64,000 bases of DNA from Lunularia cruciata (lineage: Eukaryota > Streptophyta > Marchantiopsida > Lunulariales > Lunulariaceae): the NCBI GenBank assembly GCA_948567375.1, contig OX419762.1:1679001-1743000 (forward strand), given 5' to 3'. The notes under the pieces were generated by a model. The model had not been told where the DNA came from and ran no database searches. It saw nothing but the letters and a program-made list of their open reading frames with translations. The position numbers were made by a program, and so were the translations under genes. This document shows, one piece after another, positions 18,252-63,943 of this stretch (positions within the stretch are counted from its first letter, which is position 1; each line of letters opens with the position of its first letter).

Positions 18252-18576
18252 TGTGACAACCCAACAAATTTTACTTTTGCGGCAATCAAGTAAGTAAAGT
18301 TTGTTCCCATAAAGATATAATTTAGAATTGGTCAAATACAAAGTAAATGTCACAAATGTGGTTCTTCTTGCTTTCTTCTTTAGTCTATCAGGTAGAAACC
18401 ACACCCAAAATAGAGTAACAAGCACTCAATCTTGACAACTTGTCACTAATTCACAAACTCATAATCACAACATAACAAATTTTGTCCAAACAAATCTTGA
18501 TTGTGATGATTCAGATTCTCCCAAAGATGGCACTTCATTGCAAAATGACTTTGCCCCAGAATTGTGTTCTACCCCT

Positions 18577-18800
18577 CCACTAAAGGCACAACTTCCTCAA
18601 TTGGAATTGATTCACATCAACACTACGCTGCACTCACAATTGTAGAATACTACCAACATTGCAATTCCTCTCAGATCTGTCAAGGCATCCACTAAAGGCA
18701 CAACTTCCTCAATTGGAATTGCTTCACATCAACACTACGCTGCACTCACAATTGCAGAATACTACCAACATTGCAATTCCTCTCAGATCTGTCAAGGCAT
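18577..18800. repeat. 112-bp nearly perfect tandem duplication in X-A
   Basis: Units 18577-18688 and 18689-18800 differ at about two bases. Copies B, D and E have one unit, so the duplication is recent relative to the insertion. Confidence 0.9.
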
Positions 18801-19149
18801 TGCTCCGATTGCACTTCACTCAAGATCAAACACACAAAATGAAGATCAAGGCCGTGGAATCCAACATCCAACAAACACATTGATTTGCACTTCAAAATTC
18901 TCCAAACACTCACAAATACAAACACAACATTGATACCCAAAATCAAGCTTAAGCGACGAGCATTGAAATCAACACTTTGCTTTATCTATCTTCAGAAATT
19001 ATGAATATTGAATAATATAACATTGCAAATGCCTCCTTTAAATAGTAGAGCAATCAATAGTTGCTAACAACTATATCATTCTACAACAACTATTCCTACT
19101 CGTACATCTAAAATGACAATGCACCTCTTCATATTTGCCTCTTCATATC

Positions 19150-21590
19150 TCAAATGTATGTCTACTCCGATCCGATGTCTACCTCTTCTTTGGCTTCCAA
19201 ACCTGATGATCTTCCTATCACTTCTTCTTCTTTGGATATATCTTCAACTAACAAATCCCTCACTATTTCTACTACTTCTTCACTATGAACTACAATTGAG
19301 ATCATGGTAACCTTTCTAACTCTTTATCTCCCGACCCACTCTTCTCTAAGGTCTCAAAGGACAACTTCAAAGGCACTTGTACTCCTACAGCTCTTACTTT
19401 GGACTTCTTCTCTTCCTTCACACTACTCCTAAATCTTTCTAACTCTAAATGCACTAAATCTAATTTGAGAATTATATTGTCTCCTACTTCCAACATCTTC
19501 CTATCTACTCTCTTGCTTAAATGAATTAGAAGAGTGTTCATATCTACATCCTTTGCTCTCTCCTTCCAAGTTTCATGCACAAGCAATTTTCAATTCATGC
19601 AGTCTTGTTTCCTCCAACCTTCCTTTAGCCTCCGTGCTCAGCATGGCCCGTAGTCTCCCAACAACTTCTCCCATTGATTCTGGTGCATACCCTAAGATTG
19701 CTCTACCTTCAGCTCTTCTTGGTACATCTTCAACTCATCTTCATACTCAGCAGCAAGCATCTTCTTCTCCTCCAAATATTGAGAACTCTATAGCTCAACA
19801 CTTCTTACCAAGTCTCTCAATCTTTCCTCCTCTTGATGTCAAATTGATAGCTCCTTTTCCATGCTTGATCTTTCCCTATTGCACTCTTCTTTAGGCTCTC
19901 TAACTCCTACTCCATCACTACTACCATTGACTTCACATGAATGCTTTCTATGAAAGCTTCATTGACTTCCTCTTTCATCTTTGTCAGCAACGTTGTCTGC
20001 TCCTTCAACTCTTTTGGCCTGACACTGCATCTCTCTTCCACTCTTCTCAAAACTCGCTTGCAAATTCTCTAAAGCCTTCTTCTTCAAGATTGTATCCACC
20101 CAAAGCTCCTCAACTTCTTCTTCTCTTTGGGCTACACTTTCCTACAATCCCTTCACTTCACCTATCAAATACTCCACCACCTGCAATTCATTATTCACCT
20201 TCACATGATCTTGCAGGATTACCTTCTATTGCACCTTCAGCAGCTCCAAGAATGGAGTCACAATCTGCATTAAATATTGTACTCCTCCAAAATTCTCTTT
20301 CATCTTTGGCTCCATTTTTGTACTTTGTCTCTTCCGCCGGTTCCTTCTCCTGAAGTCTCAATCTTTGTACTTTGAGCAATATTACATCCAAGCTTCCTTC
20401 TTCCTAACCGGCTGAACTTGATCCTGCAAGGTCTTCCATTGTGGCTTTCTTGTCTTTACCTCCCTTGTGATCTTCCTTCTTTGGCTCAGCCTCCATTTCC
20501 TCTAGTACTAGTTCTAAACAGGAATTATCTCATCCTCCCATATGGTCAATCATTGCATGAAAGGCTTCATCTTCTTTCATTTCAAACTGATTGCTGAACT
20601 TCCACTTCATCATCATTCTCACTTCCAGATTCCCCACTTTGTAGTGTGAGCTCCGCTTCTTCTGAGTCTCCTCCTCTAGACTTTGTCTCCCCTTCAGACT
20701 CTATTTCTAAAGTCTTCTCCTTCACCGCATTCTTACCTTGTAGAGTGAGTCTTTGGGTCTTTGGTTGTGTTGAAGGCAACACTTCCTCTTTGGGTTTAGT
20801 CTACTTCTTCATTGGACTTCTTCCTTCTTCTTGCTCTTGTTGTCCCATTCTGATGAAGAGATCATCACTAGCTTATAGGTGTGACATGTAGTGTTGCTCT
20901 TCTTCATCTGCTTCTCATCATAGGCCAGGATAGAAATGTGACACCATGCAATGCCTCTCCTCCGCTGTCATCAAATTCAACCCAAAGTAGAAGTGTGCTA
21001 CAAACAGTGCAAAATAATGTAGAGGCAAATCAGTTCTCCAATAGCTGATCATCACCCTCATTTGCTAGTGGAAGCACTTTGCCTAGTTCACCTTCACTCT
21101 TGCAAACATTTGGTGGAAGAAGATTGCTTGTTGCATGTTCATGTATGTTGTTTGTTGGGGTTTGAACATGGTTATTATTTCTCCTACAATGCTTTGTTTA
21201 ATCGGGTCACAATAGGACTCCACTTTATAACCATTAGTCGTATGCGGAGCAAAGAACAAATTTCAAAGTTCCGTAGTCTCCTCTACAATATCACACTTCC
21301 GATAGAAGGTGATCCCAGTTGCCTCTCTTGCTTCCTTCCCCAATACTAACTTCCAATCCAACTTAGTCCATCAAGTTGGATTTCCTCTCTTCTCCTTGAC
21401 TTCAGGGCCTTCTTCACAATTCCTAGCAGCTATCTCTACCATGATTCCTAAGAAACTAAAATTCCAATTCCATGCTAAAAATCTAATCCAAAGTCTATTC
21501 AAGACTTTGATTCTTGCTATGACATCTAACCTCCAAATTATGAAACTCCTCATTGTGAGTGCATTCTTGACCTTCTTCACCATGATTTGC
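19150..21590 (-). pseudogene. X-A reading frame (X protein, decayed)
   Basis: The longest conserved pieces are 21583-21371 (N-terminal block, 70 codons, with AWNWNFSFLGIMVEIAA) and 19586-19302 (C-terminal block with ETLEKSGSGDKELERL). The pieces between are Glu/Lys/Ser-rich with several shifts. Function is unknown. The order of blocks matches B, D and E. Confidence 0.65.
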
Positions 21591-22152
21591 TCTCTAGTTC
21601 TTTGGCACTAAAAAACTATTCCCTCTCTTGGATGCGACACTCTTACCCCTTCTAGACTTTGGAAAATTTCACTCTCAATTGGCTTCTTGACACGCATTAC
21701 TATAAGATGATGTATCAGAAGAACAAGATATCTACTTGACATATTTGATTTCCTCTTACGTAATTGCAATTTTATATTACCCCAAAGTGCAATCATTCTT
21801 TAGTCAATTTCAAAATCAACTCCCACTTCTTCTACGTGGTGGTTTCTTGTCACATTCAAGGCATTCTTCTCTTGCTTTTGCCATTTCTTGAAGTGTAATT
21901 TCTTGCCACATAGAAAGGTTGTTACATTGTCTTTGTATCGGTCTTTGCTTCTTGGTCCAAAGACAACCTTCTTTGGACTTGTCTCTTTGTACTCCCATCC
22001 AAGTACTTCCACTTTTTGACCCAAAGTTGACTTCTTTGGGTGTACTCTGAAGACACACCAATCCATTATTTCTTTCATAATTTGGCTTTCTAATTAACTT
22101 CTTCTTCAAAACTCTAACAAAACAGAAGAAAACAAAAAATGTAGGTACCACA

Positions 22153-24840
22153 CATATCTTGTTTGAAAGGTAATTTTGTATACATCTTCCTCCACAATCT
22201 TGATTTGGTTGTAACCGCTCTATAGATCAAGTTTGGTGAAGTGCTTTGTCCCACTGAGTTGATTGAAAAAGTCATCTATGCAATACTTTGCCCCATTTGT
22301 TGATTTAGTGTTTGATAGTCAATGCATATGCACATTGTCCCATCATTCTTCTTCACAAAAAGACAAGAGCCCCATATGGCAATCAGTTGGGTTAGATAAC
22401 CCTTTCTATAGCATATCCTTGATTTTTAGCCTTACACCCCTCCAACTCATGAGGTGATAGTCAATATGGGGCTTTACAAGGAGGTTTCTTCCCAAGAAGT
22501 ATCTCAATCTACTCTCTTTTTTGGTGGTAATCTTGATGGTAAATCATGCAAAAAGACATCTTGAAACTCATTGACCACATCTTCAAATTTCTTAGGAATT
22601 TTCTATTGGGTTCTTCATTTTAGACTTCTCTTATTAGACCCATGAAACATCTATCTATTGTACCAATAGATGTTATCCCTATGACATAGAGAGATATCTT
22701 ACCTTTGTGATCTTTTTTTAAACCCAAAAATCTTCCATGGGCTAGTTTGCACTATTTCTTTCTCCAATTGATTGTGGGGTTGTAATGCTCCATCCATGGC
22801 ATGCATAAGATTACATCATAATGAGCTAACCATATCATTCACCACTCAATTACTTCTTAATAGTCTCCTATAAAGAGTGTTACTTTTCTAGGTAATGACT
22901 CAATCCTCTTTGTCTAACTATTAAGTAACTCTACTTCATAGTTCTTGTCCTTTCTCGATTCCATCCCCAACCTTATTGCAATAGAGTAAGACAAGAAATT
23001 TCTCTATTGCTCTAAGGTCTATCAAGACTCTCACTTGATTGCTTTCTAAGAATCCATTTAGGACAATCAGTTGTGTATTTCTCCTTCTCCACCTTTGCAT
23101 ACTTGTCCTCTTCTTCCTCTTGCTTTTACTCTTCTCTACTGAGCCAATAAGGCCACAAGGTACATTTATTGGTAATATTTTTTTTCCAGTGTGATTTTAG
23201 CATCTCCTCTTCAATTCATCTCTCCATGTTATTCAAATGTTGCTTGTATGAAAGTCGAGGGCCTCTAAGAAGACAAGCATCACAATTGATGGCTATGTAC
23301 CCAACTCAATCACAATTTTAACAATGTTTTTTTTCTAATTGAGCCCCTTCTCCTTGTGAGACTCCATTTCTCCTTTCTTTGACCCATCCTCATTCTCCAT
23401 AGAGCAGTTGTGCTCCTTAGTCTTAGAACCAAATGTTGCACAATTCCATAGGAATTGGTCCACCAAAGTGCGGTATTTTTGCCCAATAGTGTTGAGTTGG
23501 AACTACCCCTTCACCTCCTCCAAGCATACTATTATTCTTTGAGCACAAGTAATGGCTTCAAAAATAGTATGAGGATTTTGTACCATTACCTCTTGGTGAA
23601 TTTGCTCTTTTAACCCTCATTTGAAATTATCAAGAGCTTTTGCTGGACATATCAATTATTACAAAATATGTAGGTCAAGAAATGTCTCCATGTACTCTTG
23701 TATTCTCTTCTTCTACTTCAAATCCCATTGTTAGGTTTCATCTACACAAAATCCAAGGTTTAGAAATTCTTCAATAGCCCTTCTTGCATTGCAAACCAAG
23801 TGATCTCTCCTCTTTTTGCCAACATTAATCTTTCCCAAGCATTGTACAATGTGAGAGCTTTATCAGTCAAGTACCCACATGCAAACATGTCTATAGAATG
23901 GTTGGTGACCTCAATTGTGAATAATCAAAAGCATTGATTCATTCTTGAAATCCAATTTTCCACTACTCCCATGGAATGTTATCCTTTGTAAGGCTCAATG
24001 TTGCACATCTTCTTCATCTGTAGTAACAATGTGACTTCATTGTTGACTAGGGTTGTGTCATTGGTATGAATGACTCTCTAAGTACTTTGGCTATTGGTAT
24101 TGGGTTTTGCAATGGTTCTCTCTCTTGCATTGCTTGATTGTTCTTGAAGGTATGCACTTGACTTTGCAATGCTTTTGTGGTCATCTTGATCTCCTAAGAC
24201 TCATTAAACATTCCTTTGATCAGATCTTGCAACTATGGCTACATGAATTGTACACATAGTAAACACTCAATTGCTACTTCCTATTTCAATAGAGTGTTAG
24301 TATGATCACTTTAGAAGAGGCACATAATATTGAAACCACCATTGGGACCTCAAAGGCTATCACTTGTTGATAATATTCTTCACCAAAATTGTGGACTATG
24401 AAATCCCTAACATCACTTTTGATCTAACCACATAATGGATTTCTACTTACATGTTGAAAGGGAGAGGATTTTCTATATTCAATCTATTACATCATGATAG
24501 AATGTAGATTTTCAAATCATATATGCCTATCATATATCACCATAGGTAGAATCATTGGGTTTGTTGAATTTATCATTATGTCTATGAACTCTACTCCAAA
24601 ATGATAAATGAGTTATACTCTTACTTGCTCACACTAGATGTATATAATCTTGATGTGAAATGGATTCAAGAATGGAAATCAAGGTGCAATAAATTGTCCT
24701 CCAAGTGCATCCATCCCATTCACTCTCTAAAACACCCCCAATCTACAATTTCATTATGTTTTCTTCCCTCAAAATTACTCAATCTCAATAGCTTGTGTTC
24801 TTTCAAGAGCGGTGATCCACTCTCTTCGATTAAAACACCC
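22153..24840 (-). pseudogene. E3 proximal RT, protease and gag remnant
   Basis: Read on the minus strand, 22370-22153 shows the RT step K-N-D-G-T-M-C-I-C-I-D-Y (fingers). About 23330-23290 shows a gag zinc knuckle (C-x2-C-x4-Y-x4-C, the His changed to Tyr). About 24400-23500 is gag-like. The frame is broken in many places. The part nearest 24600-24840 adjoins the primer site. Confidence 0.68.
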
Positions 24841-24852
24841 ACTTTGATAACA
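24841..24852 (-). other. E3 primer-binding site (tRNA-Met type)
   Basis: Minus strand TGTTATCAAAGT, directly after the LTR end; two differences from the E1 site TGGTATCAAAGC. Confidence 0.7.
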
Positions 24853-28860: not shown

Positions 28861-31800
28861 TGTGACAACCCGACAAATATCACTTGTGCGGTAATCGGGT
28901 AAGTAAAGTTTGTTCCCATAGAGATACGAGTCAGAATTGGTCAAATACAAAGCAAAGTAACAATGTAGTTCTTCTTGAGTTCCTCTTGAGTCTCTCAGGT
29001 AGAAACCACACCTAGGAGAGAGTAACAAGCATTGACTTGCAGTCTCGTCACGAATTCACACTCCTTAATAACAACACCTTCAATTCCTTCCAAACAATTT
29101 TGACTGTGATGATTCAGGCTCTCCTAAAAATGGCACTTCACTACAAAACAAATTCACCTCAGAATTGTGTGCTACCCCTCCACTAAAGGCACAACTTTCT
29201 TGATCGAAATTGCTTCACATCAACTTCATGTTGCACCCACAAATGCAGAATACTACCAACACTATAGTTCTTCTCAGATCTATCAAGGCATTGCTCCGAT
29301 TGCACTTCACTAAGGATCAAACACATAGAATGAAGATCAAGGCTACGGAATCCAACATCCAACAAGCACATTGACTTGCACTTTGAATTTCTCCATACAC
29401 TCACAATTACAAACACAAAGTTGATACTCAAAATCAAGCTAAAGCAAAGAGCATTGCTTCATAGCACTTTGCCTTATCTATTCTCACAAATAGTGAGCAC
29501 TAAACAACATAAGACTACGAATGTCACTCTTAAATAGTGAAGCAAATGACAATTTCAACAACTATACCATTTCCTAACAGCTTTTCTAACCTGCAAATCT
29601 GAAATGACAATGCATCTCTTCATATCTACCTCTTCAAATCTCAAAATGTTACTACTCTGATCCAATGTCAACCTCGTCATTGACTTTCAAACCCAATGAT
29701 CTCTCTATAATTTCCCCATCCTCGGGTCTATCCAATTCTACTCCTAACTCTTCTATTTCTACAATTTCTTCACTACAATCTACAATTGAGGTCATGGGTA
29801 ATCTATCTACTTCCTTATCTCCCAACCCACTCTTCTCTAAAGTTTCAAAGAACAACTCCAAAGACACTTGAACTCCTACTTCTACAACTTTGGGTCTTTG
29901 TACTTCTTCTACCTCACTACAAAGTTTAGCTAACTCTATCCTAATAAGATTTAGTCTGAGACACACATTGTCTCCCACCTCTAACATCTTCTTATGTACA
30001 CGATCTTGTAGACAAATTAAGAGATTATTCAACTTTGTATCCTTTGCTTTCCCCTTGCGCGTCTCCTACACTAATAACTTCAGCTCATGCAATCTTGCCT
30101 CTTCAAGTTTACATTCAACTTCCGTGCTCAGCATGGCCTTGATTTCATTGACAACACCTTCTACTTCATTAGCATCTTCTACAACCGTAAGCTTCTCCTT
30201 CTTCCTTTCTTCCTCTAATTCACTGCAATACATCTGGAGCTCATCTTCAAATTCAGCCTTCAATGCCACCTTCTCCCTCCGATTCACATTGAGTTGCTCC
30301 TCTGCTACTCGGACCAATCCTTGCAACCTATCTTCTTCTCTATTGTGCTCCATTAACTCTCATTGCCAGGCTTGATCTTTCTTTGCTGCCTTCTTCTTGA
30401 GACTCTCCAACTCTTGCTCCATCACTGCAACAATTGCTTTGGAGTGTATTAATTCTACACGCACATCTGTAAGTTCTCCTTTCAACCTTGCAACCATCAC
30501 GGTCATCTCCTTTGCTTCCTCACGACTCTTTACTAATTCTTCCCTCATCACTTCAAAGTGCTTACTACAAAGAACCTCCTCAACCCAAAGTTCTTTGACT
30601 TCCATCTCCACCCTCATCAACTTACTTTGCAACAATGATGTTTTTGCACTCCAGGTCTTTACTACTGCCAATTCATCCGGCACCTCAAGATTGGCACTTA
30701 CAATCTCCATCTTCTTCTACTACAACATCATCAATAGTGGACATGCAACTCTGGACAAATAGTCCACTCCTTTGCACCTTGCGTTATTGGCTCGGACTTT
30801 GAGTTCCAACCACTCTACGTCTTGTACATTGCTCCAAAGTTGCAATCTTCCCACCTTCAAAGTTTCTTCTTCTGAACTTTCTCCCCCTTCTTGAGTAACT
30901 TTACTAGGCCCCACTACAGATACATTTTGAGCATTCTTACCCTTGGCAGTTTGGGGTTGTGCCACGACTTCCTCTCCCTTCTTCTTCTCACTTCCTTGTT
31001 CAAGCATGGAAACTTTGGGACTCAGCTTTCCGGCCTCCTTCATCGACTGTCGCATTTGTTGAACATCCACTTTGCCTTTGCTGTCATTGCTTGATTCTTC
31101 ACTCCATAACGTGAACTCCTCTTCTTCTCCCAACATTCCTTCCTTCAATCTGGTTTCTCCTTCAAATTCTTCTTCTTCTTCTTCTTGCATGGCTCCCTTT
31201 GTCTTCATTACCACCGCCATTGGGTTAAACTTTGGAACTTCCTAGGGTTGGACTGTTGCAACACGACTCTAAGGCTTGGCTCTCCTTTGCGCCCTTGGAA
31301 GGTCAATTGCTATGATCTTCTCCTTCCCACTCTCCTTGTAGTATGAATCCCCATCTTGCACTCTCTCCATATAATATTGCTCATCTACATTGGCTTCCTT
31401 TCGTAAATCTGGATGAAAGTGCAAACGCATTCGACTTAGTTCTTCCAAAGTCAGCAAGTTCAACCCAAAATAAAAAAGTGTGCTGAAATGGCACAAAGTA
31501 ATGTGGTGGCATATCCATTCTCCATCTTGAAATCATCTGCCCTACTCTCTGATGCAGACATTTTGCCCAATCTATTACCTCTTCCGCAAACATTTGGTGA
31601 AAGAACACCGTCTATTGCATAGTAACATAGGTGGTTCACTCTGGCTTGAACATGGCCATCATTGCGCTTACTATCCCTCTCCACTCAAGATCTCTATAAC
31701 TGTCCACCTTATACCCATTCTTAGTGCGGGGTTGATTGAACAAATTCCTCACTTCGGCAGTCTCTTTTGAGGCATCACACTTCCGATAGAAGGTGGTACC

Positions 31801-32617
31801 TCCTACCTCTCCTGCTTCTCTTCCCAACACTACTCTCCAATCCGCCTCCATCCATCGAGCGGGATTCCCTCTCTTCCCCTCATGCTTTAGGGCATCCTTG
31901 CAATTGCTTGCTGCAATTTCTACCATCAAACCTTGAAAACTGAAGTTCCAGTTCTAGGCCAAGAACGTGATACAAAGTCTTGTCAGACTTTGATCCGCGC
32001 TATTACTTCTTATCTATGAATTGCAAGCACTCTCACTGCACTCTGCTTACTCATTTTTGGAGTCATCGTGTGCTTCCTCACCTTCCTCTTGTGGAAGATC
32101 ATCCCCGAAATCCTAACCCACTCCTCTTCCTATGGATTTCAATTTGTATTATTTTGGGTCGACTCTAAATAGGAACCGGGTAGGGACTAGACATTACTCT
32201 ACTTCCTTGCGCAACTTGTAATTTTATAGTCCTACGCCAATCAGTCACTTGTCAGTTGCTCCTCCTCTCCCATCTCCGACACGGTGAAGTTGTTGCCTAT
32301 CACTATCAAGAAGTTCTTGATCCTGAGGTCATTACTTTCTTCCTACGTACTTTCTTGATTGCACCAACTCCAAAGAAGTTTGTTATAGGTTATTCGGATC
32401 TGCTCATGCCGCCCAATATGAAGTCTCTCCTTCTTCTTCTTTGTCTTTGCATCTTTGGGTTTTACTTCACACCTTGACCCAAGGTCGACTGTGGGTTTTA
32501 CTTCACACCCATGCTTCTTCTTATTTCTTCCTAGGTTAGCACTCTGTAGGTTCTAACCATCTACTTCTTCTTCAAATGCTAACAAAACAGAAAAAAACAA
32601 AAAATGTGGGTACCATA
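28861..32617 (-). mobile_element. X-B: full-length copy of the X element (3.76 kb)
   Basis: Plus-strand ends are TGTGACAACCCGACAAATAT and ATGTGGGTACCATA. Flanking pentamers are GTGAT and ATGAC, 3 of 5 identical, both matching the variable GGTGAYATG of the L2 LTR it entered. It contains the best long uninterrupted stretch of the X frame and the conserved tail with a TTAAATA box near 29530. Confidence 0.85.
29652..31990 (-). pseudogene. X-B reading frame (coiled-coil X protein)
   Basis: From 31220 to 29652 a single frame is open apart from about four stops: two adjacent near 30717, one near 30357 and one near 30063. The parts are an acidic and Ser/Lys-rich segment (31220-30720), two long coiled-coil segments rich in Glu, Lys and Leu (30710-30066), and a C-terminal block (30032-29652) with ETLEKSGLGDKEVDRLP ending in EVDIGSE and a stop. 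The N-terminal region (31929-31269) is in three frames and carries NPARWMEADWRVVLGRE and MPPHYFVPFQ. Function is unknown. The low number of lesions over about 520 codons argues that this frame was once translated. Confidence 0.7.
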
Positions 32618-38534: not shown

Positions 38535-39512
38535 TATGGTACACACATTTTTTGTTTTTGGTAGTTTTTAGGGGAGGAAGTGATATTTGAAGTAGAAAAG
38601 AAGGTTAGATGGAAGAAATTGGCAGATTCAAACCTGAAGTAGAAAATCTGATCCAACTTAAGGAAGTTGACTTTGTATTGGAGAGGAAGAACACTCAAAT
38701 TGGACCTAAAAGGATGGACTATCCTAAGTGGGAATACTTCACATTATGGTGAAGACAATTGATGCAAGGATCTTCAATTGCAAGCTCAACTTAGGCCATA
38801 CCAACCAAATAAACGATGCTCATCATGGACAACTAACCTTTTGTGAAGCTATACAAGAAAGTGATAGGAATAAAAACATGAATCAGGTGTGATTTTTGAC
38901 TAAGTTTTGATGAAAAATGACTGAAAATCAAAGAAGTATAAAATCAAGGCTTGGCAAAAAGAATTTTGCAATGTTGAGTCAAATTTGTCATATGAATTTT
39001 TGTAGTCCATCGGATCAGAGTAGAGTTGCAAGCCAAGTTGTGGGGTTCTTGTGCGCAAAATCAAGTGAGGAAGAGTGAGTCAAGATGCTGCTCAAGGGAG
39101 GTTGCTAGGTTTCTCCCATCTCAATCAAAAATCTTGCTATTAGGAAAGTAGATATGGTTTCCTAATTCAAAATAGCAAACTTTGGATCACTTGAGTTTTC
39201 CAAGATTCATGATAAAGATAGCCGCATGCAATTGTGAGGATGGTCCAAGTGCAAAGGAGAAGAAAGGAAATCCCTCTATTTGGACTAAAGCCAATTGGAG
39301 GTTGGTGCTGGAGAATGATGCAAGAGAACCTAAGTGGATCACCTTGGATCAAAAGTGTGATCCTTTGGAAGAAATGGAGGAAGTGTCATTGAGTGAACCC
39401 AAAAAGAAGAATAAGTATAAAGTGTACACCTACATGGACCCGTCGAGGCAAAGTATCATTGGAGTAGTGATGGCAATGATGAAGCCAGAGTGTAGCACTT
39501 ATGTGACAAAGT
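38535..39512 (+). mobile_element. X-F: 5' fragment of an X element in plus orientation
   Basis: Starts TATGGTACACACATTTTTTG, a near match to the sense start of other X copies. It contains the X N-terminal block at 39182-39514 (NPSIWTKANWRLVLE, then KNKYKVYTYMDPSRQSIIGV). It stops where X-C begins in the opposite direction, so its remainder was displaced to the far side of X-C and then lost. Positions 38580-39180 should be its leader but align poorly to the others by eye. Confidence 0.72.
39182..39512 (+). pseudogene. X-F N-terminal reading frame
   Basis: One open frame of about 110 codons equivalent to the N-terminal region of D (49000-48640) and B (31929-31636). Shared signatures are NP-x-x-WTKADWRLVLE, KNKYKV and IVGVVMAMMKPE. 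A 20-base deletion lies just before it, where the others have AWNWN. Confidence 0.7.
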
Positions 39513-40671
39513 AGTATGGCAATCCAACAAGTATCACTTTTGTGGTAATTAGCAAGTAACAATTTGTTCCCATAGAGACACGAGTAAGAAATGGTCAAAT
39601 ATGAGGTAAAATGTCACAAATAGTTCTTCTTGGTTGTATCTTTGATCTCTCAAGTAGAAACCACACCCAAAAGAGAGCAACAAGTATTGAATCATAGTCT
39701 CACCATAAATCATAATACCCAAAATCATAGTTCTCAAATCCTTTCCAATTCAACCTCAATTGTGATGATTCAATTCTTCTCAAAGAAGTCTACTTCACCA
39801 CAAAATGACTTCACCTCAAAATTATATTCCACTCCTCCATTGAAGGCACAACTTACTCAATCAAAATTGCTTTGCATGAATCCAACATTGCGCTCACAAA
39901 TGTACAATACTACCAACACTACAATTCCTCATGGATATATCAAGGCATGCTTTGATTGCTATCTACTTAGGATCAAACACACAAAATGAAATCAGAGTTG
40001 TGGAATCTAACATCCAACACTCATTGAATTACACTTTGAACTTCTCCAAATACTCACAAACACACACATAGGATTGATACTTGGAAATTAACTGAAATGA
40101 CAAGCACTAAGTTTTAGCACTTTGCTTTACTCAACTTTGAAATTACAATACTTAACAACAACACACTACAAATGTCACCTTTAAATAGCACTATGACAAT
40201 TATCTAACAACATACTGTTCTACAACAACTTTACCAATGTGAAGATCCAAAATGACAATCCCCTCTTCATATCTACCTCTTCATATCTCAAAACTATTAC
40301 TAATTCAATCTGATGGCTACTTCAACTTTAGCTTCTAAACCCAATGTTCCCACAATCACTTTGTCTTTGGGTTTGACTACAATTATGATTGCTTTTTTCC
40401 CTTCTATCCTATCTTTAGCCTGAACTGAAATTGAAGTCATGGGTCTACTAATTACTTCCTCCTTCTTTACACTGACTACTCGTAATGTCTTAGGTAACTC
40501 ACTTGTACTCCTACATATGCAGACACTTGTACTCCTACATATGCTACTTTGTATCTAGCTTCTTCCTTCACACTACTCCAAAGTTTTTCCAAGTCTAATC
40601 TTACTAGATCTAATTTGAGACTCACATTGCCTCCTATCTCCATCATCTTCCTATCTACATGGTCTCTTAGG

Positions 40672-41409
40672 TGTTATATTTAGAGGATAGAGAAACAAAA
40701 TAGAGAAAACACAAATTCAACACTCAAGCTCCGATGCTCCAAAGGAGCACATTCTCTTTACTATATAGCCAAAGAGGATCTCTTCCAAGGAAGCTCCACT
40801 ATAGGATTAGGTACATGGATAGGTGACATGTAAGAAAGCTCTACCCTTAGATTACTTGCTTGGATGGGTGACATGTTGGTCTTAGTCCCATCTGGTTGGT
40901 CAAATAGGCTTTGATAAGAGGGAATCTTCTTATAGGAATCTCAAAATCACGTACATGAGGTATTGTTGGAAAGCTCTTGATGAGACAAAATTGGAGGAGG
41001 GAGGGGAAGCCTTACCTTAAATATTTCAGTTGGGGACAAATGTACACATTTTTGAGGCCTAATTCATCTGTTTAGGCTTCCAAAATTGCCTATGAAGTTT
41101 TTAGGCCTATTTTGGCTTCTAGCCTATTAGAAGAAGTGATCTTTTGGTGATACCTCTATCTGATACACTTTATCTATCATGTGTAATATCCTTTTAGATG
41201 TCACCACCCCAAGTTTCACCTCAAAATCATATGCTTAGCTATTGATTCTAAAGTTTCCAAGCATATTTTGGTTTTTGGGTCTATTAGTAAAAGTACTCTT
41301 TTGGCAATATCTCTTTTTGATCTATTTAGTTTATCATGTATAACATTCTTCCATACATTACCAAACCAAATTTCATCTCTAGATCATATGTCTAGCTATT
41401 GGTATTACA
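40672..41409 (-). repeat. L2 solo LTR (long subtype) with perfect target duplication
   Basis: Plus-strand ends TGTTATATTTAGAGG and GGTATTACA; 738 bases. Duplication TTAGG is exact at 40667-40671 and 41410-41414. Its U3 end contains a ~200-base direct duplication. Confidence 0.92.
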
Positions 41410-41607
41410 TTAGGTGAATTAACAACTTGTACATGACAATATCCTTGCCTTTCTCTTCCTTGTCTCCTACACTGACACTTCAAGTTGTGCAGTCTTGCTT
41501 CCTCCATTTTGACCTTGGCTTCAACACTCAACATTGCTTTTAACTCCACAACTTCTCCTACTCAACTATCTCTCTCCTTGGAATTATCTTCTCTCAATTG
41601 CTCTTGA

Positions 41608-42372
41608 TGTCTCAATACTCCGAGGATAGGAGACCTGAAGAAAAACACACCATGAGAAACACACAATTTCACACTCAAACCTCCGATGCCCCAAGAGAGC
41701 ACCTTCTCTTTATTATATAGACAAAGAGGATCTCCTGTCAGTAAGCTCCACCATAGGATTAGGCACATAGATAGGTGATATGTCAGCAAGCTCCACCCTT
41801 GGATTACTTACTTGAATGGGTGACATGTTGGTCTTAGTCCTATTTGGTTGGTCAAACAAGCTTTGATTAGAGGGAATCTTTTAAGGAATCTTCTTGTAGG
41901 AATCTCATAATCACGTGGGTGAGGTACTAGTGGAAAGATGATGAGACAAACCAGGGGGAGGGAAGGCCAGCCCTTTGTTTGTGGGTGGATTGGGAGGAGG
42001 GGAAATTTACACATTTTTGAGGCGTAATTTATCTATTTAGGCCTCCAAAATTGCCTTCAAAGATTTCAGGTATATTTCAATGCCTACTCTATTAATAAAA
42101 GTACCCTTTTGGTGATAAATCTTCCCAATCTATTTAGTCCATCATGTGTAACATCCTTCTAGATGTTACCAAACCAATTCTCACCTTTAAATCATATGTC
42201 TAGCTATTGGTTCTAAGGTTTTCAAGTCTATTTTGGTTTTTGCCCTGTTTCTAGAAGTACTCTTTGGTGACACTTCTATCTAATCTATTTTGACCATCAT
42301 GTATAACATCATTCCAGATGTTACCAAACCAAATTTCACATCTAGATCTTATGGCTAGCTCTTGGTATTACA
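41608..42372 (-). repeat. L2 solo LTR (long subtype)
   Basis: Plus-strand ends TGTCTCAATACTCCGAGG and TTGGTATTACA; 765 bases. Flanks CTTGA and CTCGG match at 3 of 5. It has the same internal U3 duplication as 40672-41409. Confidence 0.82.
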
Positions 42373-43578
42373 CTCGGCTTCTAATTCATTCCGGTATATC
42401 TTCAACTCATCCTTGAATTTTGCCTTCAATGCCTCCTTCTCTTCTAGATACTAGACTAGTTGATTCTCTACAATTCTGATCAGTCCTTGTAGTTTGTCTT
42501 TTTCTCAATGTCTATTTATCAACTCTCATTTCCAAGATTGATCTTTCTTCTTTGCACTTTTCCTCAGGCTCTCCCATTCTTGCTCCAACACCATTGCCAT
42601 CACCTTCAAATGTAGCACCTCCAAGCTTGTATCTGTTAATTATCCTTCAATCTCTCAAAAGCAAATTTTTTCTCCTTCAATTCTTTAGTTCATTGTTTGA
42701 GTTCTTTGCTGTGCTTCTCACAACTCTCCTTCAATTGATCAAAACTCTTTCTTCAAAGAACAACATCATCCTAAAGTTCTTTAACTTCTTTCTTCCCTTG
42801 AGTTAGCTTCTTCCTCAACTCCAAGTTATCATTACTCACAAACTTCAAGACATCAAACTCATCCCTCACTTCAAGATGCTCTTTCTTCAATTCTTCCTTC
42901 TTCTTCTACCACTGCACAAACAAAGGACAAACAATCTTTGATATAGACTTGACTTTGGTGTATGCTCCGTCATTGTTTGCTTTGTCATCATCTTTGGCTA
43001 GTGCTTTACCCCAAAGTCACAATCTTTGCACCTTCATAGTCACTCTATATGAGCTTGCTTCCTCCTCTTTGGCTTTGCTTGGACTTGGAGCTACAATGTG
43101 CACATTTCTCTTTGATCTTTCTGCCCTTGGAAATGCCAAGGCAGCCTCTCTTGCTTGTTCTTCCTCCAACCCTACTGCAAGTAACTCTAGACAAAGCTTG
43201 TCTCTTCCTTCCATACGGTCAATTGCTGCATAGAACTCCTAATCTTCTTCTCGCATTACTCTGTCCATTGATTGCTAGACTTTGGGTTTTCCTTCACTCT
43301 TGTTTCTAGACTCCCTACTCTACAAGGTGAACTCTTCTTTCTCTCCCAAGTCTTCACACTTTGACTTGGCTTTTCCTTTTGATTCTTCTTTCAAAGATTG
43401 TTTCTTCACTACCTCCATCTCTTGCTTTGATTTCAACTTCCTTGTCTGCTATAAAAGCAATGGCAATATTCTTCCTTTGGGTCTTCTCTTCCTTGGCCAC
43501 AAGATGTCCACAAACACTATCTTCTCCTTCCCATTCTTAATGTAGTGATCATTGCCTTCATGTTTATATTGCCTTGTT
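42373..43578 (-). pseudogene. X-C coding remnant (coiled-coil and charged middle)
   Basis: Minus-strand pieces rich in Glu, Lys and Leu continue the X frame upstream of the nested LTR. 43214-43017 reads LELLAVGLEEEQAREAALAF. The reading frame is badly shifted; the assignment rests on position and on alignment with B near 31330 at the right end. Confidence 0.55.
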
Positions 43579-43586
43579 GTTTATAT

Positions 43587-43598: not shown

Positions 43599-43599
43599 A

Positions 43600-45874: not shown

Positions 45875-46545
45875 TGTGACAACCCGGCAAATATCACTTT
45901 TGTGGTAATCGGGTAAGTAAAGTTCATTCCCACAGAGATACTAGTCAGAATTGGTCAAATACAAAGTCAAAGTAACAATTGCAATTCTTCTTGGTTGCAT
46001 CTTTAATCTCTCAGGTAGAAACCACACCCAGAAGAGAGTAACAAGCACTGATTCACAGTCTTGTCACAAATTAGCACTTCCTTAATCACAACTCCATCAA
46101 TTCTTTCCAAACAATCTTGATTGTGATGATTCAAGCTCTCCCAAACATGGCACTTCACTGCAAAACAACTTTTCCTTAGAATTGTGTTCCACCCCTCCAC
46201 TGAAGGCACAACTTCCTCGATCAAAATTGCTTCACATCAACTTCACACTACACTCACAAATGCAGAATACTACCAACACTACAATTCCTCTCAGATCTAT
46301 CAAGGCATTGCTCTGATTGCTCTTCACTCAAGATCAAACACACAGAATGAAGATCAAGGCTACGGAATCCAACATACAACAAGCACACTGACTTGCACTT
46401 TGAATTTCTCCAAACACTCGCAAACACAAACACAAAGTTGATACTTGGAATCAAGCTCAAGTGACAAGCACTACTTCACAACACTTTGCTTTAACTATTC
46501 TCAGAAATAATGAGCACTGAACAACATAATACTACAAATGCCACT

Positions 46546-46553
46546 CTTAAATA
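46546..46553 (-). promoter_or_regulatory. Conserved TATA-like box in the X tail
   Basis: Minus strand TATTTAAG within CACTATTTAAGAGTGGCAT. The same box occurs in A (about 19040), B (about 29530), C (about 40185) and E (about 62705), about 650-790 bases before the sense 3' end in each. Confidence 0.5.
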
Positions 46554-46671
46554 GTGAAGCAATCAACAATTATCTTCCTAATGCACCTCTTCCTAATGAC
46601 TCTACAAACCTACAGATCCGAAATGACAATGCACCTCTTCATATCTGCCTATTCAAATCTCAAATTGGTTA

Positions 46672-49057
46672 CTAATCCGATCCGATGTCTACTTCTTCTT
46701 TGGCTTTCAAACCTGAACCCGAAGTAAGTGTACTTCCTACTGCTCTGTCCTTGGGTTTCACAACTCCTACATCTTCTACCAGATCTAACAATTCTCTTTC
46801 CTGATTTGACATTTCACTAGTGGGTAATCTATTTAACTCCTTATCTTCTGACCCACTCTTCTCTAATGTCTCCAATGGTAACTCCAAAGACATTTTCACT
46901 CCTACTTCATCTACTTTGGGTTTTGCTCTAACATCTTTCTGAAGTTTATCTATCTCTAACTTCACTAGATCTAATCTAATCATGATATTGTCTTTGACTT
47001 CCAATATCTTCCTATCTACCCGAGTTCTGAGACTAATTAATAGAGCATTCAAGTCTGTATCCTTTGTATGTCTCCTCCTCATCTCCTGCACTAACAACTT
47101 CAACTTGTGCAGCCTCGTCTCTTCAATACAAACACTGGTCTCTTTACTCAGCATCGCATTCATCCTGATTATGATCTCCTTCAATGGCTCCAATCTCATC
47201 TTCCTTTCATGCTCCCGATCTGCAAGCCAATCTTCCCTGTACATTGCCAACTCTACCTTGAACTTGGCTTTCACAGTTTCCTTCTCCTTCTCCTTCTACA
47301 CAATCTTCTCCTCCTGATTACAAAGTAACTCTTGTAATCTCTCTTCTTCCCTATATCTCACTGTCAACTCCCATTGCCACAGTTGCTTCTTCTCTTCTAC
47401 ACTATCCATCACTCTATCAAGCTCTTGTTCCTTCTCTGCTACCCTTGCCATAGCATGGATAATTTCTAGTCTTGAATCAGCAAACTGCTGCTTCAAGATT
47501 TTGTACTCTACTACTTGTCTCTCCCTTGCTATGTCATTCTTCTTCACAAGTTCCTCTTGATACCTCGCTTCTCTCTTCAAGTTCTCAATAACTTGACACT
47601 GCCATACTGCATCCCCTCACAATAATTCCCTTTCCTCCTTGCCTCAAATTATAGTCCTCTTCAACTCCAAGTTCTCTTCTTCCAATCTTGCCAAAACTTG
47701 CAACACAGTCTTCACCTCCGAACATGTCGACTGCATCTCTTTCTTCTTGTGCTCTAGCTTCACTAACAATGTGCACACAATTTCTCACAGGTAGTCTATT
47801 CCATCACTCGCACCTACTTCTATCTGCAGAGTGATCTCCTTCTTTACCTCTTCTTCACCCGATACTCGCCTTCTTCTCTGCAGTCGTCGTATTGGAATAG
47901 ACGCTCTTCTCTTCCCTTGCCTTGCTTTGATCCGCTTCACACTTTGCCTTGCGTCTTGACCAAACTCCCTTCTTAATTGTAATCTTCTTCTCCTCTGGCT
48001 TGGGTACCTCTTCCTCCAACTTTGCATTATTTTCTTCCTTGAGCTCCAGCCAAACTTCTTCTTCTTTGGCAGTAGGTATTGACGTCATCTCCCTACCTTT
48101 ATCACTATTGCTACTCGTATCCCCACTTTGTAGTGTGAGCTTTGGTTCCTTCTTGTGTTCCGAGTCTTTGGACTTGCACTCGGCTTTGCCTTCCAAGTCT
48201 TCCTCTGATGACGCAATCACCACTATGCCTTTCCTTGGGTTTCCTCTCCTGGTCTTTTGAGGTCTTGTCTTCTCTACGTCTTCGCCTTCTCCTTGTCGAC
48301 TTCTATTCTTCGACTTTGGAGTACTCACTTCTACCTCCACACTCTTGCCCGTCTGCACGTAGTACTCATTAGTGCTTTGGATTTGAAGAATGTATTGTTG
48401 CTCCTCCGTGTTGACTTCTCTTCTCAAGTCGGGATGAAAGTGAGACACCATTCTGCTACGCTCTGCCAAATTGAGCAAATTCAACCTGAGGTAGAAATGT
48501 GCTACAAACGGCACAATGTAGTGTGGAGGCAACTTATCCTGAAAATTCCACACCATCTATCTCGTCCTCCCATGGAAGCACCTTGCACAGTTGATAGGTT
48601 CTCCTACAAACATCTTATGGAAGAACACCGCTTGGTGTTTCATCACATAAGTTGTCCTCTCCGGCTTCAAGATTGCCATGAGAGCACTCACGATCCCTCT
48701 CTTTAGTGGATCTTTGTAACTCTTGACCTTATACCCATTCTTTGTTCTCTTCAAAGAGAAGGCATCCCTCACTTCTTGGGTTTCTTAAGCTACCTCTCCC
48801 TTCCCCAAAAACATGGCACCTTGCTCCACGCTTGCCTCTCTTTCGAGCACCAATCTCCAATCTGACTTTGTCCAGCAAGCCGGATTTCCTCTCTTCCCTT
48901 CTTCCTCGAGGCCATCGAGACACTTACTCTCGATTATCTCGGTCATGAAACCTAGAAAACTTACGTTCCAGTTCCATGCCAAGAAGGTGATCCAAAGTTG
49001 GCTCAAGACTTCAATTCTTGCGATCACATCTAACCTCCGAATCACATGATTTCTCAC
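46672..49057 (-). pseudogene. X-D reading frame (about 795 codons, X protein)
   Basis: One frame from 49057 to about 47870, then after a single frameshift another to the stop at 46672, with about six stops in total. Blocks in order: N-terminal (RRLDVIARIEVLSQLW, TFLAWNWNVSFLGFM, WTKSDWRLVLEREAS), then YKVKSYKDPLKRGIVSALMA, then KLPPHYIVPFVAHFYLRLNL with HFHPDLRREV. A Lys/Glu/Ser-rich segment without structure follows (48350-47880), then long coiled coils (47580-46900), ending ETLEKSGSEDKELNRLP to EVDIGSD. I recognise no known domain. The N-terminal block is the best preserved between copies, suggesting the functional core. Confidence 0.75.
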
Positions 49058-49639
49058 TATGAATTTAGAGTTCTTCTTTCCTCCTCCTATCTTTCATGCT
49101 TCCTCACTATCTCTTGGTTTAACTCTCTCAAATTCTCCTCTACACACTAACGCTTCTTCAACTCTACTTCCGTTCCCACGATCTCCTCTAGGACGACTCC
49201 TCAATGGCAAAGGAAAATTGCTTGACATTGCTTTGTCGTTAGCCCGATTTTCATATAGTCGCGTCTTCTTCATCTCTCTTCAATTCAATTTTCTACCAAG
49301 AAATCACACCTCTTGCATGCACCTATCACAATCAATTGTACTTCACACATATGACCGCCGGTTTTGAACAGTCCCTTCTTGAATTTCTTGCCCCAAAGAA
49401 AGGTTGTTACACTGTCCTCACCTTGGGTTGAGCTCCTCCCCCAATACAAAGACTTCTTACTTTGGGTTGTATGCTGATAGGGCAAGTTCGAGTACTTCGC
49501 CTTATGACCCAAAGCCACGTTACCTCGGGTTTCATCCAAAGATGCTTTTCTTCGCCTTCTTTGGCCATATAGGTGCAATCCAACTTCTCTATACACTTCT
49601 TCTTCTCCATTTCAAAAAAAAAAAAATGTGGGTTCCACA

Positions 49640-51830: not shown

Positions 51831-51949
51831 TCTCATCATCATAGCAATTACAACAATGTCAATCAACTCAAAGGTCCAAATCAAGTTTACAAGTGCTTTA
51901 CAACAAGATCTCTTCTTTTAGTTAGTACAAGGTTATCTTGGAGCACATG

Positions 51950-53199: not shown

Positions 53200-53583
53200 T
53201 ATAACAATATAGAATTTAGAGATGAGTTAGTCAAGACTAACAAAGCAACAAGTAGAACAAATTAGCCAAGAAATTATAAGAATGATCTAGAAGTATCTAG
53301 GAAGCTTCTTGGTACTTTCCAAGTATTGGGTGATGTGTATGCCAAGTAGGCAACTTCTAGGAGGAAACTTCTTGGGAAGCCTCTTCACTAGCTTAGCTTG
53401 CATACCAAGTAGGTGGCTTCTAGATAGATCATCTTAGGAGGCTTCTTGACTACCTTAACTTGCATGCCAAGTAGGTGGCTCCTAAAAGGAAGCTTCTTGA
53501 GAAGCTTCCCGATTAGCTTAGCTTTCATTCTAAGAATACGGCTTTTACAAAGCTTCTCCTATTTCTCTCCTTAGTCTTTTATA
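53200..53583 (+). repeat. E2 3' LTR (L1 family, promoter region deleted)
   Basis: Starts TATAACAATATAGAATTTAG and ends near TTAGTCTTTTATA; 384 bases. It has four U3 repeat units against three in E1, and lacks the TATA-to-CACTCATTC segment present in E1. Confidence 0.8.
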
Positions 53584-57740: not shown

Positions 57741-58004
57741 GTGGGAAATGATCAATGCCGCCATGCGGCAACCAAGAAATTGATTAGGGGTCAAGGAATT
57801 TTACATTGGGAGTGCAACAAAATTTTTGCAATAAGAGATCAAATACCTTGTTTTAGTGCAAGAGACTCACTTTTGGACGCTGATCCAAGACCTATAGAGT
57901 CATCTTTGGATTTGCAACCTCAACAACCATTAGGGATATTTGGAGAGCTATTGAGGATGGCTTTTTCCGTGCCAGGCTAAACAAAGGAGGATTAAAAATT
58001 TCAC

Positions 58005-59111
58005 ATGGAAATGCACCATTATAGCCAAATACTAGATTATTTGGAGGGCCTTGAGCATTTTGCACAAATTCATGGTAGGAATTGCAAAAAGCCCATTCAA
58101 AAATTGACCACATTTAGTTTCATGGCAACCTTTTTGATTAGGGAGGGAAAAGGATTTCCTACTCCTACTTTTGTGACAGGTGATAGGCTTTACAAGAAAT
58201 GGTTGAGGTACATGAAACAGTACAAAGAAACTCAGGAGCTTAAGAACAAGTCTATTAGAGAAGGTCTCATGAAGAAGGAATATGGAAAAGGGTGGAGACC
58301 TATAGAAGATAAATTGAATGGAATGTGCCCGCATTTTGCAAGAATGGAAGCCATGTTTGGGACCAGAGCAAACATAAGTCTACCTACAATGGTAATTTTA
58401 GGAGATTATAATCCCAATTCAAGCAAGATTTGTGAGGCTAGCAAGGAAGAGGTCCATGAAGGTGCTCAAGAGTGCTCACAATTCCCATCTCCTCCAGAGG
58501 TGATGCTCCTTGACTTGGACCTCCAATTGGTCCCAAATACCCAAGGAGTGGAAAGTATACCAAGTGGCATGGACAATGGAATCCTATCATTCAAGGATGA
58601 GTCTCCATTTGTTCTACCAATTGAAGACTTGCCTTTCATTACACCACCACCTTTAATTTCTACAAGAGATGGATCCAAGTGTGCTTTAATCAACCAAGAA
58701 GTGGAACATGACCCAAAGAGCAAGAAAGGTGAAAGGTGGAATCAAGAAGGTACTGAGTTTTCACCTAGTATGTCATTGTCTCATGATTTAGCAAAAATTA
58801 CCATGTTGAAGGCATATACTATAGAATCCAAGGAGAGATTACAACTAGCTAAACTAGAAACCACCAACATGAGGAAAAGAGAGAAAACAATCATGAGAAT
58901 GGAAGCAAAGCGTGTTAGATTAAAGTTAGAGAAGATGAAAATTGGAATTGAGAAAAAATTGAGTGCAGATAAAAGGAAAGCTAGGGCAGACAAACACAAC
59001 TTTAAGGAGAAGAGATTGGAATCAAAGCTCACTCATGAAATCAAAATGAGTCTCATAGAGGTAGGGAAAACTCTCGAGGAAATAAGTCACTATTTCAAAG
59101 TGCTTACTTAG
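58005..59111 (+). CDS. Intact 368-residue protein, trihelix/Myb-SANT-like with C-terminal coiled coil (tentative)
   Basis: The longest unbroken single frame in the window. The start MEMHHYSQIL is the first ATG of the frame; no spliced upstream exon is obvious, although 57741-57980 is also open on this strand. Residues about 15-135 resemble a trihelix or Myb/SANT-like DNA-binding unit: RLYKKWLRYMKQYKE is the usual K-x-W-x2-L-x3-Y-K step, and CPHFARMEAMFGTRANISLP resembles the closing segment of such domains. Residues 150-250 are acidic and Pro/Ser-rich. Residues 265-368 are highly charged and helical. Such proteins are DNA-binding regulators or PIF/Harbinger accessory proteins; which applies is not settled. 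A polyadenylation signal follows at 59177. Lack of stops in DNA this decayed suggests function or a recent arrival. Confidence 0.6.
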   Translation: MEMHHYSQILDYLEGLEHFAQIHGRNCKKPIQKLTTFSFMATFLIREGKGFPTPTFVTGDRLYKKWLRYMKQYKETQELKNKSIREGLMKKEYGKGWRPIEDKLNGMCPHFARMEAMFGTRANISLPTMVILGDYNPNSSKICEASKEEVHEGAQECSQFPSPPEVMLLDLDLQLVPNTQGVESIPSGMDNGILSFKDESPFVLPIEDLPFITPPPLISTRDGSKCALINQEVEHDPKSKKGERWNQEGTEFSPSMSLSHDLAKITMLKAYTIESKERLQLAKLETTNMRKREKTIMRMEAKRVRLKLEKMKIGIEKKLSADKRKARADKHNFKEKRLESKLTHEIKMSLIEVGKTLEEISHYFKVLT

Positions 59112-61889: not shown

Positions 61890-61892
<3 letters not shown>

Positions 61893-61912
61893 AAACCTAA
61901 TCAATCACTCAC

Positions 61913-62031
61913 CATACTCATCCTCTCCATCATTAGTAGTCTCGTCCTCATTTGAGCTATCTGCATCCTCATGATCATCATCATGCTCTCCCTCGTGTAT
62001 AATCTCCTCCTCTCCATCCCTTAGGTACATT
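61913..62031 (-). pseudogene. Acidic exon piece interrupted by X-E
   Basis: Minus-strand open sequence reading YLRDGEEEIIHEGEHDDDHE and ending NDGEDEY, followed by a good splice donor (TATG/GTGAGT at 61913/61912). On the other side of X-E, 63997-63944 continues in the same frame (FVERGFIPGEDVM). It is the host reading frame that X-E split. Confidence 0.5.
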
Positions 62032-63943
62032 TGTCACAACCCAACAAATATCACTTTTGCGATAATTGGGTAAGTAAAGTTCGTTCCTGCAGAGATACGA
62101 GTCAGAAATGTCCAAATACAAAGTCAAACAGTAACAATGTAGTTCTTCTTGAGTTCTTCTTTAATCTCTCAGGTAGAAACCACACCCAAAAGAGAGTAAC
62201 AAGCACTGATTTGCAGTCTTGTCACAAATTAACACTCCTTAATCACAAATCCTTCAATTCTTTCCAAACAATCTTGATTGTGATGATTCAGGCTCTCCCA
62301 AAAACGTCACTTCACTACAAAACAACTTCACCTCAAAATTGTGTTCCACCCCTCCATTGAAGGCACAACTTCCTCAATCAAAATTGCTTCACATCAACTT
62401 TGCACTGCACTTACAAATGCAGAATACTACCAACACTACAATTCCTCTCAGATTTGTCAAGGCATTGCTTCGATTGCACTTCACTCAAGATCAAACACAC
62501 AAAATGAAGATCAAGGCTGTGGAATCCAATATCCAACAAGCACTCTGACTTGCACTTTGAATTTCTTCACACACTCACAAACACAAGTACAACATTGATA
62601 CTCGGAATCAAGCTCAAGCGACGAGCATTGCTTCACAGCACTTCGCTTTATCTATTCTCAGAAATACTGAGCACTGAACAACATGATACTGCAAATGCCA
62701 CTCTTAAATAGTGAATCAAATTGACAGTTCTAACAACTATACCGTTCTACAAAAACTCTTCTAACATGTAGATCCAAAATGACAATGCACCTCTTCATAT
62801 TTGTCTATTCAAATCTCAAATCTATTACTACTCCGATCCAATGTCTACTTCGTCCTCGGCTTTCAAACCCAAACCCGAAGTAATCTTACTTCCTACTACT
62901 CTAACCTCGGGTTTCACAACTCCTAATTCCTCCACTAATTCTAACATTTCTCTTTCCTGATATGAAATTCCTATCATAGTTAAGCCTTCTAAATCTCTAT
63001 CTCCCAATCCACTCTTCTCTAAAGTATCAAATGTCAAATCCGAAGACACCTGCACTCTTATCTCTCTTACTTTGGGTCTAACTATTATCAATTCTTTTAC
63101 TAATTCTGTTATGTCATCATCAAGAATTGCAATTGAAAGCATGAATACACTATCTACACATTCAATTTGTAACCCACTTTCCCCTAATCACTCATGTTAC
63201 TAACCCAAAGACTCTTACTGTCTGATCCTGCACTTCAGGTTTATTCACTACTGCAACTTCTCCTTCAATTCATGTTCCATCTTCAATTAGAACTGAAATT
63301 GAAGTCATGGGTATCCTAACTATCTTCTTTCTCTACTCTAACTTCCTCTGATCCCTCCCGCAAAACTCCCGAAGTCACCTTCACTGCACTCCGAGGTCCA
63401 GCTACCTCTGATTTAGCCATCTTCATCTTGAGGCAAAGTCTTTAGACCCAAAGTCTTGTAAACCCGAAGTCCGAAGTACAAAATTTGAAGTCACATTGAC
63501 CCGAAGACACTTTGACCCAAAGTACATCTACTCTAGAAACTTCAAATGCTTGTGACTTCTTCTAAAAACCTGTAAACTTTGCAATTTTGGTGGCAATGGA
63601 AAGCCCTAAACGAGACGCTTCCAACGAGATATAACATGCTTGATTTGGAGTTGCAGTCACTGAGATATGGCCCCCGCAAGAATCCTGACCTGCAACTTCT
63701 ATTTCTCCTTCGGCGTCTGCTCTCCTTAACGTCTGATCCGAGTTTTTCACTCCTCTGACACAAAGTAAGTTTCTTCGGGTCTGATGCAAACCGAGCCTTT
63801 CTTCCTCTTACACAAAATTGACTTCCTCAGGTCTGATCAAAACACAAGTTTGCACTCATTTCTTCTCCATTTGGTTTCAATTTGGTTTCAGCAAGGCATT
63901 TCTTCTTCTAAACTTGTCCAAAATGAAAAATGTGGGTACCACA
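62032..63943 (-). mobile_element. X-E: X element with large internal deletion (1.9 kb)
   Basis: Plus-strand ends TGTCACAACCCAAC and TGTGGGTACCACA; flanks ACATT and ACATC match at 4 of 5. It retains the leader, the C-terminal block of the X frame (63142-62828, ending EVDIGSE) and the conserved tail with TTAAATA near 62705. The middle and N-terminal coding, about 1.85 kb, is missing, with the breakpoint around 63180-63420. It interrupts an acidic reading frame. Confidence 0.85.
62828..63142 (-). pseudogene. X-E C-terminal reading frame
   Basis: 105-codon open frame aligned with the C-terminal blocks of B and D: FDTLEKSGLGDRDLEGL in the middle and KAEDEVDIGSE at the stop. No stop or shift within it. 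Confidence 0.7.

Follow-up and report, generated by a model that had tools for sequence, protein, structure and literature searches.

The window analysed here is a 64-kb stretch (64,000 nucleotides) of the Lunularia cruciata genome (assembly GCA_948567375.1, contig OX419762.1, positions 1,679,001 to 1,743,000; G000:C12:1679001-1743000 in the assembly that we searched, which comprises 566 Mb in 74 contigs). This assembly gave 37 matches to the chlorophyll a/b-binding family, in keeping with its size and gypsy content for a plant; among 14 control genomes a cyanobacterium matched as well. A preliminary description had reported in it six copies, A to F, of a 3.8-kb element with common ends, here called X, and had offered two readings: giant solo long terminal repeats (LTRs) with a coding unique 3' region (U3), or a new type of single-gene non-autonomous retroelement. 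We favour the first, and put at about 0.9 the probability that X is the LTR, some 3.7–3.9 kb long, of an abundant and mostly old Ty3/gypsy family, that its U3 carries an accessory gene of about 875 codons, and that the complete copies in the window are solo LTRs.

The copies are listed in Table 1. Both ends and the flanks of A, B, D and E are as first described, so that the claim of shared ends stands for these four; it does not hold for C, which is truncated, has a degenerate end and lacks the sense start, and is therefore not a whole copy, or for F, a fragment of about 980 bp. Likewise, a 3.8-kb element with a single gene is a fair account of A, B and D, although all their frames are broken, but not of E, which at 1.9 kb is missing most of the U3 gene, the open remainder amounting to about its last 119 codons.

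Table 1. X copies of the window, read as LTRs, and the gene regions of the three full-length ones
Feature	Position	Strand	Description
Copy A	18252..22152	-	Full-length solo LTR, 3901 bp; flanks CATAT/CATAT; ends, alignment and empty site
Copy B	28861..32617	-	Full-length solo LTR, 3757 bp; flanks GTGAT/ATGAC (3/5); own subfamily; empty site
Copy C	39513..43578	-	LTR remnant, about A positions 1413-3899; two ~720-bp Y repeats inside (40689-41409, 41639-42372)
Copy D	45875..49639	-	Full-length solo LTR, 3765 bp; flanks ACAAC/ACAAC; sits in gypsy remnant; empty site
Copy E	62032..63943	-	Short-form solo LTR, 1912 bp; flanks ACATT/ACATC (4/5)
Copy F	38535..39512	+	About the first 980 bp of an LTR copy; orientation opposite to the other copies
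U3 gene region of A, broken	19305..21607	-	Open pieces match D type in BLASTP
U3 gene region of B, broken	29655..31953	-	Open pieces match D type in BLASTP
U3 gene region of D, broken	46672..49270	-	Longest open pieces 47858-48556 (233 codons) and 46675-47295 (207 codons)

The X end motif (at most one mismatch) occurs at exactly four places in the window, the ends of A, B, D and E. The start motif was found at 22139, 32604, 49626 and 63930 with 0–1 mismatch and at 38535 with two; six further matches at three mismatches are at chance level. As the counts (11 starts vs 5.0 expected, and 4 ends vs 1.2) by themselves exceed chance only weakly, the argument depends on how the copies align over their length and on the empty sites. 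When the flanks of A are joined, they match an uninterrupted chromovirus relative elsewhere in the genome (locus L032), and those of B and D match window positions 24955-25085 and 14430-14560 respectively, again without interruption. We conclude that A, B and D are real insertions.

No X internal region lies within the window. Pieces of X gag-pol taken from elsewhere in the genome gave distant matches to it only (reverse transcriptase, RNase H and integrase, at 25–34% identity), which come from other gypsy elements, and scans of the window with Rfam and ARAGORN gave no match. Near its sense 3' end, copy A has a 113-bp tandem duplication (18576-18800; 98.2% identical). This was a late event, because its halves are far more alike than A is to the other copies.

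X as a long terminal repeat

A polypurine tract (PPT) followed by the X start occurs at 1,757 places genome-wide, and the X end followed by TGATTTTTGGTGCC, a primer-site-like sequence that we take to resemble the end of tRNA-Asp, at 1,674 (at most three mismatches in each case), while the backward-read controls gave 0 for both. Pairing the first 100 places of each kind, all of them mismatch-free, yielded eight primer site–PPT pairs less than 20 kb apart in the right order and on the right strand, and three in another arrangement. Three of the eight are spaced at 6.15–6.17 kb and the rest at 5.8, 6.85, 6.88, 10.0 and 13.8 kb. We fetched three pairs, E1, E2 and E3, each as its two end stretches; the nearest window copy is A for E1 and E2, and D for E3. 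In E1 (C6:27,896,592-27,910,127) the LTRs measure 3,687 and 3,690 bp and are 95.3% identical over 3,675 aligned bases, AAGGA stands on both sides, and the primer-site-like sequence and PPT are in place. Pairs of X flanking an internal region, with a primer-site-like sequence directly after the X end, were what the preliminary description had anticipated of a genome search with D should X be an LTR.

The internal regions encode gag and pol. In Pfam, pieces from locus L039 matched gag (1.1e-6), reverse transcriptase (4.4e-22), RNase H (1.5e-29) and the integrase zinc domain (4.4e-13), and a piece of E1 matched the integrase core (3.8e-11). The pieces of L039 and L034 follow the Ty3/gypsy order of gag, reverse transcriptase, RNase H and integrase. 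In both copies read at this point (L031 and L034) the integrase stop codon lies at the PPT, and the U3 gene is therefore wholly inside the LTR. This is not the env-like arrangement, with a sense open reading frame (ORF) between pol and the 3' LTR: here the integrase reaches the PPT, and it is U3 that contains the ORF. We saw no additional (archaeal-type) RNase H in the Pfam-scanned pieces of L039 and L034, and no chromodomain, the C-terminal piece of the E1 integrase (one copy) having no Pfam match. The reverse transcriptase and integrase look Athila/Tat-like, as judged by their motifs. Some kilobases upstream of the X integrase end, L031 also contains degenerate short repeats (839-2317) with long, probably accidental, frames.

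Short LTRs of the E type also belong to elements, as their PPT junctions show. The PPT joined to the start of copy E was found at 96 places with at most three mismatches. Exact matches make up 23 of these, and other subfamilies may be present among the less exact ones. We fetched three of the exact places: two gave complete LTRs (1,903 and 1,920 bp), and at the third the match to E extends over 248 bp only. At L040 and L042 the 1.9-kb form, with most of the U3 gene gone, stands immediately after the PPT. We saw no integrase frame just upstream of the two complete short LTRs.

Genome searches with the window copies recovered many relatives. The search with D, in which 37 of 14,933 first-look candidates were scored, listed 48 matches. 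Besides D itself, 33 of these are full-length or nearly so, 32 with 86–91% identity and one with 80%. That with B, in which 40 of 17,310 candidates were scored, gave many full-length relatives at up to 89% identity. From the D type we cut out 30 loci, D included. Six are preceded by the PPT, one of them (L019) without the first LTR bases; after three others comes TGATTTTTGG or a form of it with one base changed; none has both junctions and 21 have neither. Lone and element-bound copies of X thus coexist in the genome.

That X is complete as it stands, moving as a single-gene non-autonomous retroelement, might be suggested by the window, where every copy is lone and A and D have exact 5-bp duplications, and by the 11,675 places that match the 21-base X start (at most three mismatches; 13 in the backward control), compared with the 1,757 that follow a PPT. 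We nevertheless regard it as barely credible. X ends are joined to element sequence in well over a thousand cases of each kind, with clean controls, E1 consists of two X copies around gag-pol, and solo LTRs account for the lone ones. It is on the junction counts, E1 and the gag-pol internal regions that we call X an LTR and discard the new type of element. TG...CA ends with 5-bp duplications are indeed retrotransposon behaviour, as first proposed, but their pairing with non-retrotransposon content is the appearance of a solo LTR and not the mark of a novelty. Counting two starts for each PPT-linked element would leave some four to five lone LTRs to each element. The figure is rough, since the patterns differ in length and the counts pool truncated, short and nested copies.

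Solo LTRs would have arisen by recombination between the two LTRs of an inserted element. Deletion or gene conversion could instead have produced the lone copies, and some loci are truncated or have no clear duplication (L018, L020). However, recombination within an element predicts both ends and an intact duplication, and 15 of the 21 lone D-type loci have both ends with a duplication matching at four or five of five positions (8/420 in mismatched pairings), which is exact in 10 of the 21 (0/420); we consider deletion or conversion very improbable as the general source.

The reading frame in U3

The U3 frame runs on the sense strand from about LTR position 362 to 2987, or some 875 codons. In the 30 D-type copies, sense open pieces of at least 120 codons lie mainly between about 362 and about 2990, the longest having 361 codons. 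By themselves such pieces are weak evidence, as they are equally numerous on the + strand of the window copies.

A more discriminating measure is the distribution of mismatches over codon positions. We compared one D-type copy with five sequences of other subfamilies, dropping runs shorter than 30 bases or below 50% identity. Mismatches at first, second and third positions numbered 144/123/192 in LTR interval 362-800, 294/225/480 in 801-1300, 213/147/312 in 2301-2640 and 183/135/252 in 2641-2987, and in the flanks 84/98/73 (1-361) and 147/131/141 and 103/91/124 (2988-3785). The third-position excess is confined to 362-1300 and 2301-2987 within U3 (p from 3e-4 to 3e-23, values that are overstated because the five sequences are related, two being the LTRs of a single element) and is absent from 1-361 and 2988-3785. 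Both ends of the frame were therefore under coding constraint in the past.

Among the D-type copies, sites at which at least four of them carry a second base divide as 143/126/226 by codon position, and private changes as 308/282/363. These patterns indicate constraint before insertion and less of it after, though the private changes, too, are uneven. After the frame, 22 of the 30 copies have a TATA-like CTATTTAA, which fits a U3 with the gene first, and then promoter, repeat region (R) and unique 5' region (U5). Between subfamilies, identity is 77–85% in R/U5, 46–69% in bins across the gene and 54–64% in the first 361 bp.

For the predicted protein, no Pfam model for Transposase_28, Athila ORF-1 or the plant mobile domain matched any of 24 N-terminal pieces (E at most 1), nor the pieces P0001 and P0002 (E at most 0.01). 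AlphaFold2 models of two N-terminal pieces were too poor to use (mean pLDDT 49.6 and 43.9). An env-like protein was considered but not clearly supported: two pieces have no clear transmembrane segment, with a maximum 19-residue hydropathy of 1.5, just under the usual threshold of 1.6, and of 0.84. A coiled coil in the C-terminal part was likewise unsupported (1 of 313 windows by a crude heptad score).

Several observations weigh against an LTR of this kind with a U3 gene, or limit it. Two full LTRs were found in E1 only, one of the three pairs fetched; the 3' LTR of E2 and the 5' LTR of E3 are incomplete in the stretches read. Six of the 21 lone D-type loci lack even a 4/5 duplication at the strict boundary. 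The whole frame is intact in none of the 30 D-type copies examined. Its middle (1301-2300) is poorly aligned and gives no codon signal (125/130/138 in 1301-1800, p 0.66; 161/140/173 in 1801-2300, p 0.19), which leaves it unproven that the frame is one continuous gene. The first 361 bp of U3 have diverged about as much as the gene, and fast change is therefore not special to it. Finally, nothing in Pfam, NCBIfam or the PDB sequences matched the U3 protein credibly.

Some of these points would suit an ordinary giant LTR in which the open pieces are chance frames in purine-rich DNA and no U3 gene was ever selected: the lack of an intact frame, of a domain match and of a mid-frame signal. A strand-skewed composition lowers stop frequency on one strand, and pieces of at least 60 codons hold 1395 (A), 1425 (B) and 1418 (D) residues on the + strand of the window, compared with 725, 1092 and 1416 on the - strand. 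Chance frames would not readily explain why the third-position excess respects the limits of the frame and spares the LTR flanks. Nor would they explain why BLASTP pairs hundreds of codons of one subfamily with those of another at a dN (nonsynonymous divergence) below dS (synonymous divergence): dN is 0.35–0.44 and dS 0.6–1.9 or saturated, over 82–595 codons per copy, values taken from BLASTP-matchable pieces only, a choice that favours conserved stretches. We judge that no gene was ever selected to be quite improbable. A host gene recently captured by one element and then amplified is somewhat less so, though still unlikely; no retrotransposon protein model matches the U3 protein, as such a capture would predict, but at least the A, B and D subfamilies have the gene in U3, with differences at about 31–54% of the sites aligned there, and any capture must therefore be old.

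We thus return to a gene borne by the LTR. Each full-size X LTR appears, from these comparisons, to carry a protein gene that is broken in the copies examined but was conserved in earlier evolution, its two ends being where constraint is seen. The element reads LTR, primer-site-like sequence, gag, reverse transcriptase, RNase H, integrase, PPT, LTR, and the LTR would be giant because its U3 houses the sense gene between the PPT and the TATA-like site. A complete element would then have two copies of the gene, the one in the 3' LTR standing at the 3' end of the genomic RNA. This is the location of extra ORFs in other plant elements, here brought inside the LTR, and the gene may have entered U3 when a PPT arose upstream of an older internal 3' ORF. 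It might be expressed from a spliced genomic transcript or from a U3 promoter, presumably in an accessory role.

Other repeats in the window

A repeat of about 720 bp, Y, occurs in both orientations at 24852-25486, 37171-37739, 44540-45262 and 50451-51068 as well as inside copy C (Table 1), with fragments near 9971-10170, 28689-28859 and 32619-32884. It is probably a chromovirus LTR, because it matches L032 7001-7657, a stretch that follows a chromodomain-type pol. One chromovirus lies in pieces on the minus strand (9978-12473, 18167-18250 and 22153-23775; collinear with L032 2947-7185), split by nested insertions of a gypsy element and of copy A. That gypsy element (12474-18144) has ends of about 400 bp that are 87% identical, and Y, D and Y break up a relative of it at 43579-53557. 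No Pfam match over the cut-off was obtained for the window's longest open frame (57996-59111, 371 codons).

Comparison with known elements and significance

Non-chromoviruses of the OTA group (Athila/Tat) are described with LTRs of up to about 5 kb, 5-bp duplications and frequent extra ORFs (PMC6317226), and Marchantia is reported to have Tat elements that lack the additional RNase H (PMC10508981). X resembles the OTA elements, including Athila, in its very large LTRs, 5-bp duplications, extra ORF and lack of a chromodomain match, but differs in having the ORF inside the LTR and an integrase that ends at the PPT. Rice Retrosat2, also Ty3/gypsy, has LTRs of more than 3.2 kb, an extra ORF of no assigned function and 429 solo LTRs as against 162 complete copies (PMC3485330). 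X shares the large LTR, the extra ORF and the many solo LTRs; ORF0 of Retrosat2, however, is internal and upstream of gag-pol.

A review places the additional ORFs of plant elements in the internal region (PMC7264820), and Retand, Grande and RIRE2 have a long extra gene 3' of pol (PMC7264820, PMC11963269). X shares with them a long additional protein gene 3' of pol. Their ORF, unlike that of X, is antisense, lies between pol and the 3' LTR and often encodes Transposase_28 (PF04195), for which the X U3 protein pieces gave no match. In the open-licence literature on ORFs in LTRs and on plant, Athila/Tat and liverwort retrotransposons, covered mostly at the level of titles and the beginnings of abstracts, we found no plant element described as carrying a conserved ORF within the LTR; a maize candidate was set aside, since the paper concerns a gene embedded in a maize element (PMC1560396).

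A further parallel is one of function rather than of kinship, which we do not claim. Mouse mammary tumour virus (MMTV) sag and lentiviral nef are accessory genes in, or reaching into, U3 of the 3' LTR, as the X gene is in U3. These, however, belong to vertebrate retroviruses and encode much smaller proteins.

LTRs are usually treated as regulatory, non-coding DNA. It is possible, although we hold it at clearly less than even odds, that a conserved accessory gene of about 875 codons moved into U3 and so came to be present twice per insertion and once per solo LTR, perhaps with its own promoter. Thousands of dispersed single-gene loci would have been created in this way, and elements with E-type LTRs might have been served in trans. 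A conserved gene that makes up most of a giant LTR would be a concrete reason for extreme LTR length, and suggests that the position of the PPT can decide which genes double with the LTR. For annotation it is a warning, as a gene-bearing solo LTR can pass as a host gene or as a new single-gene element.

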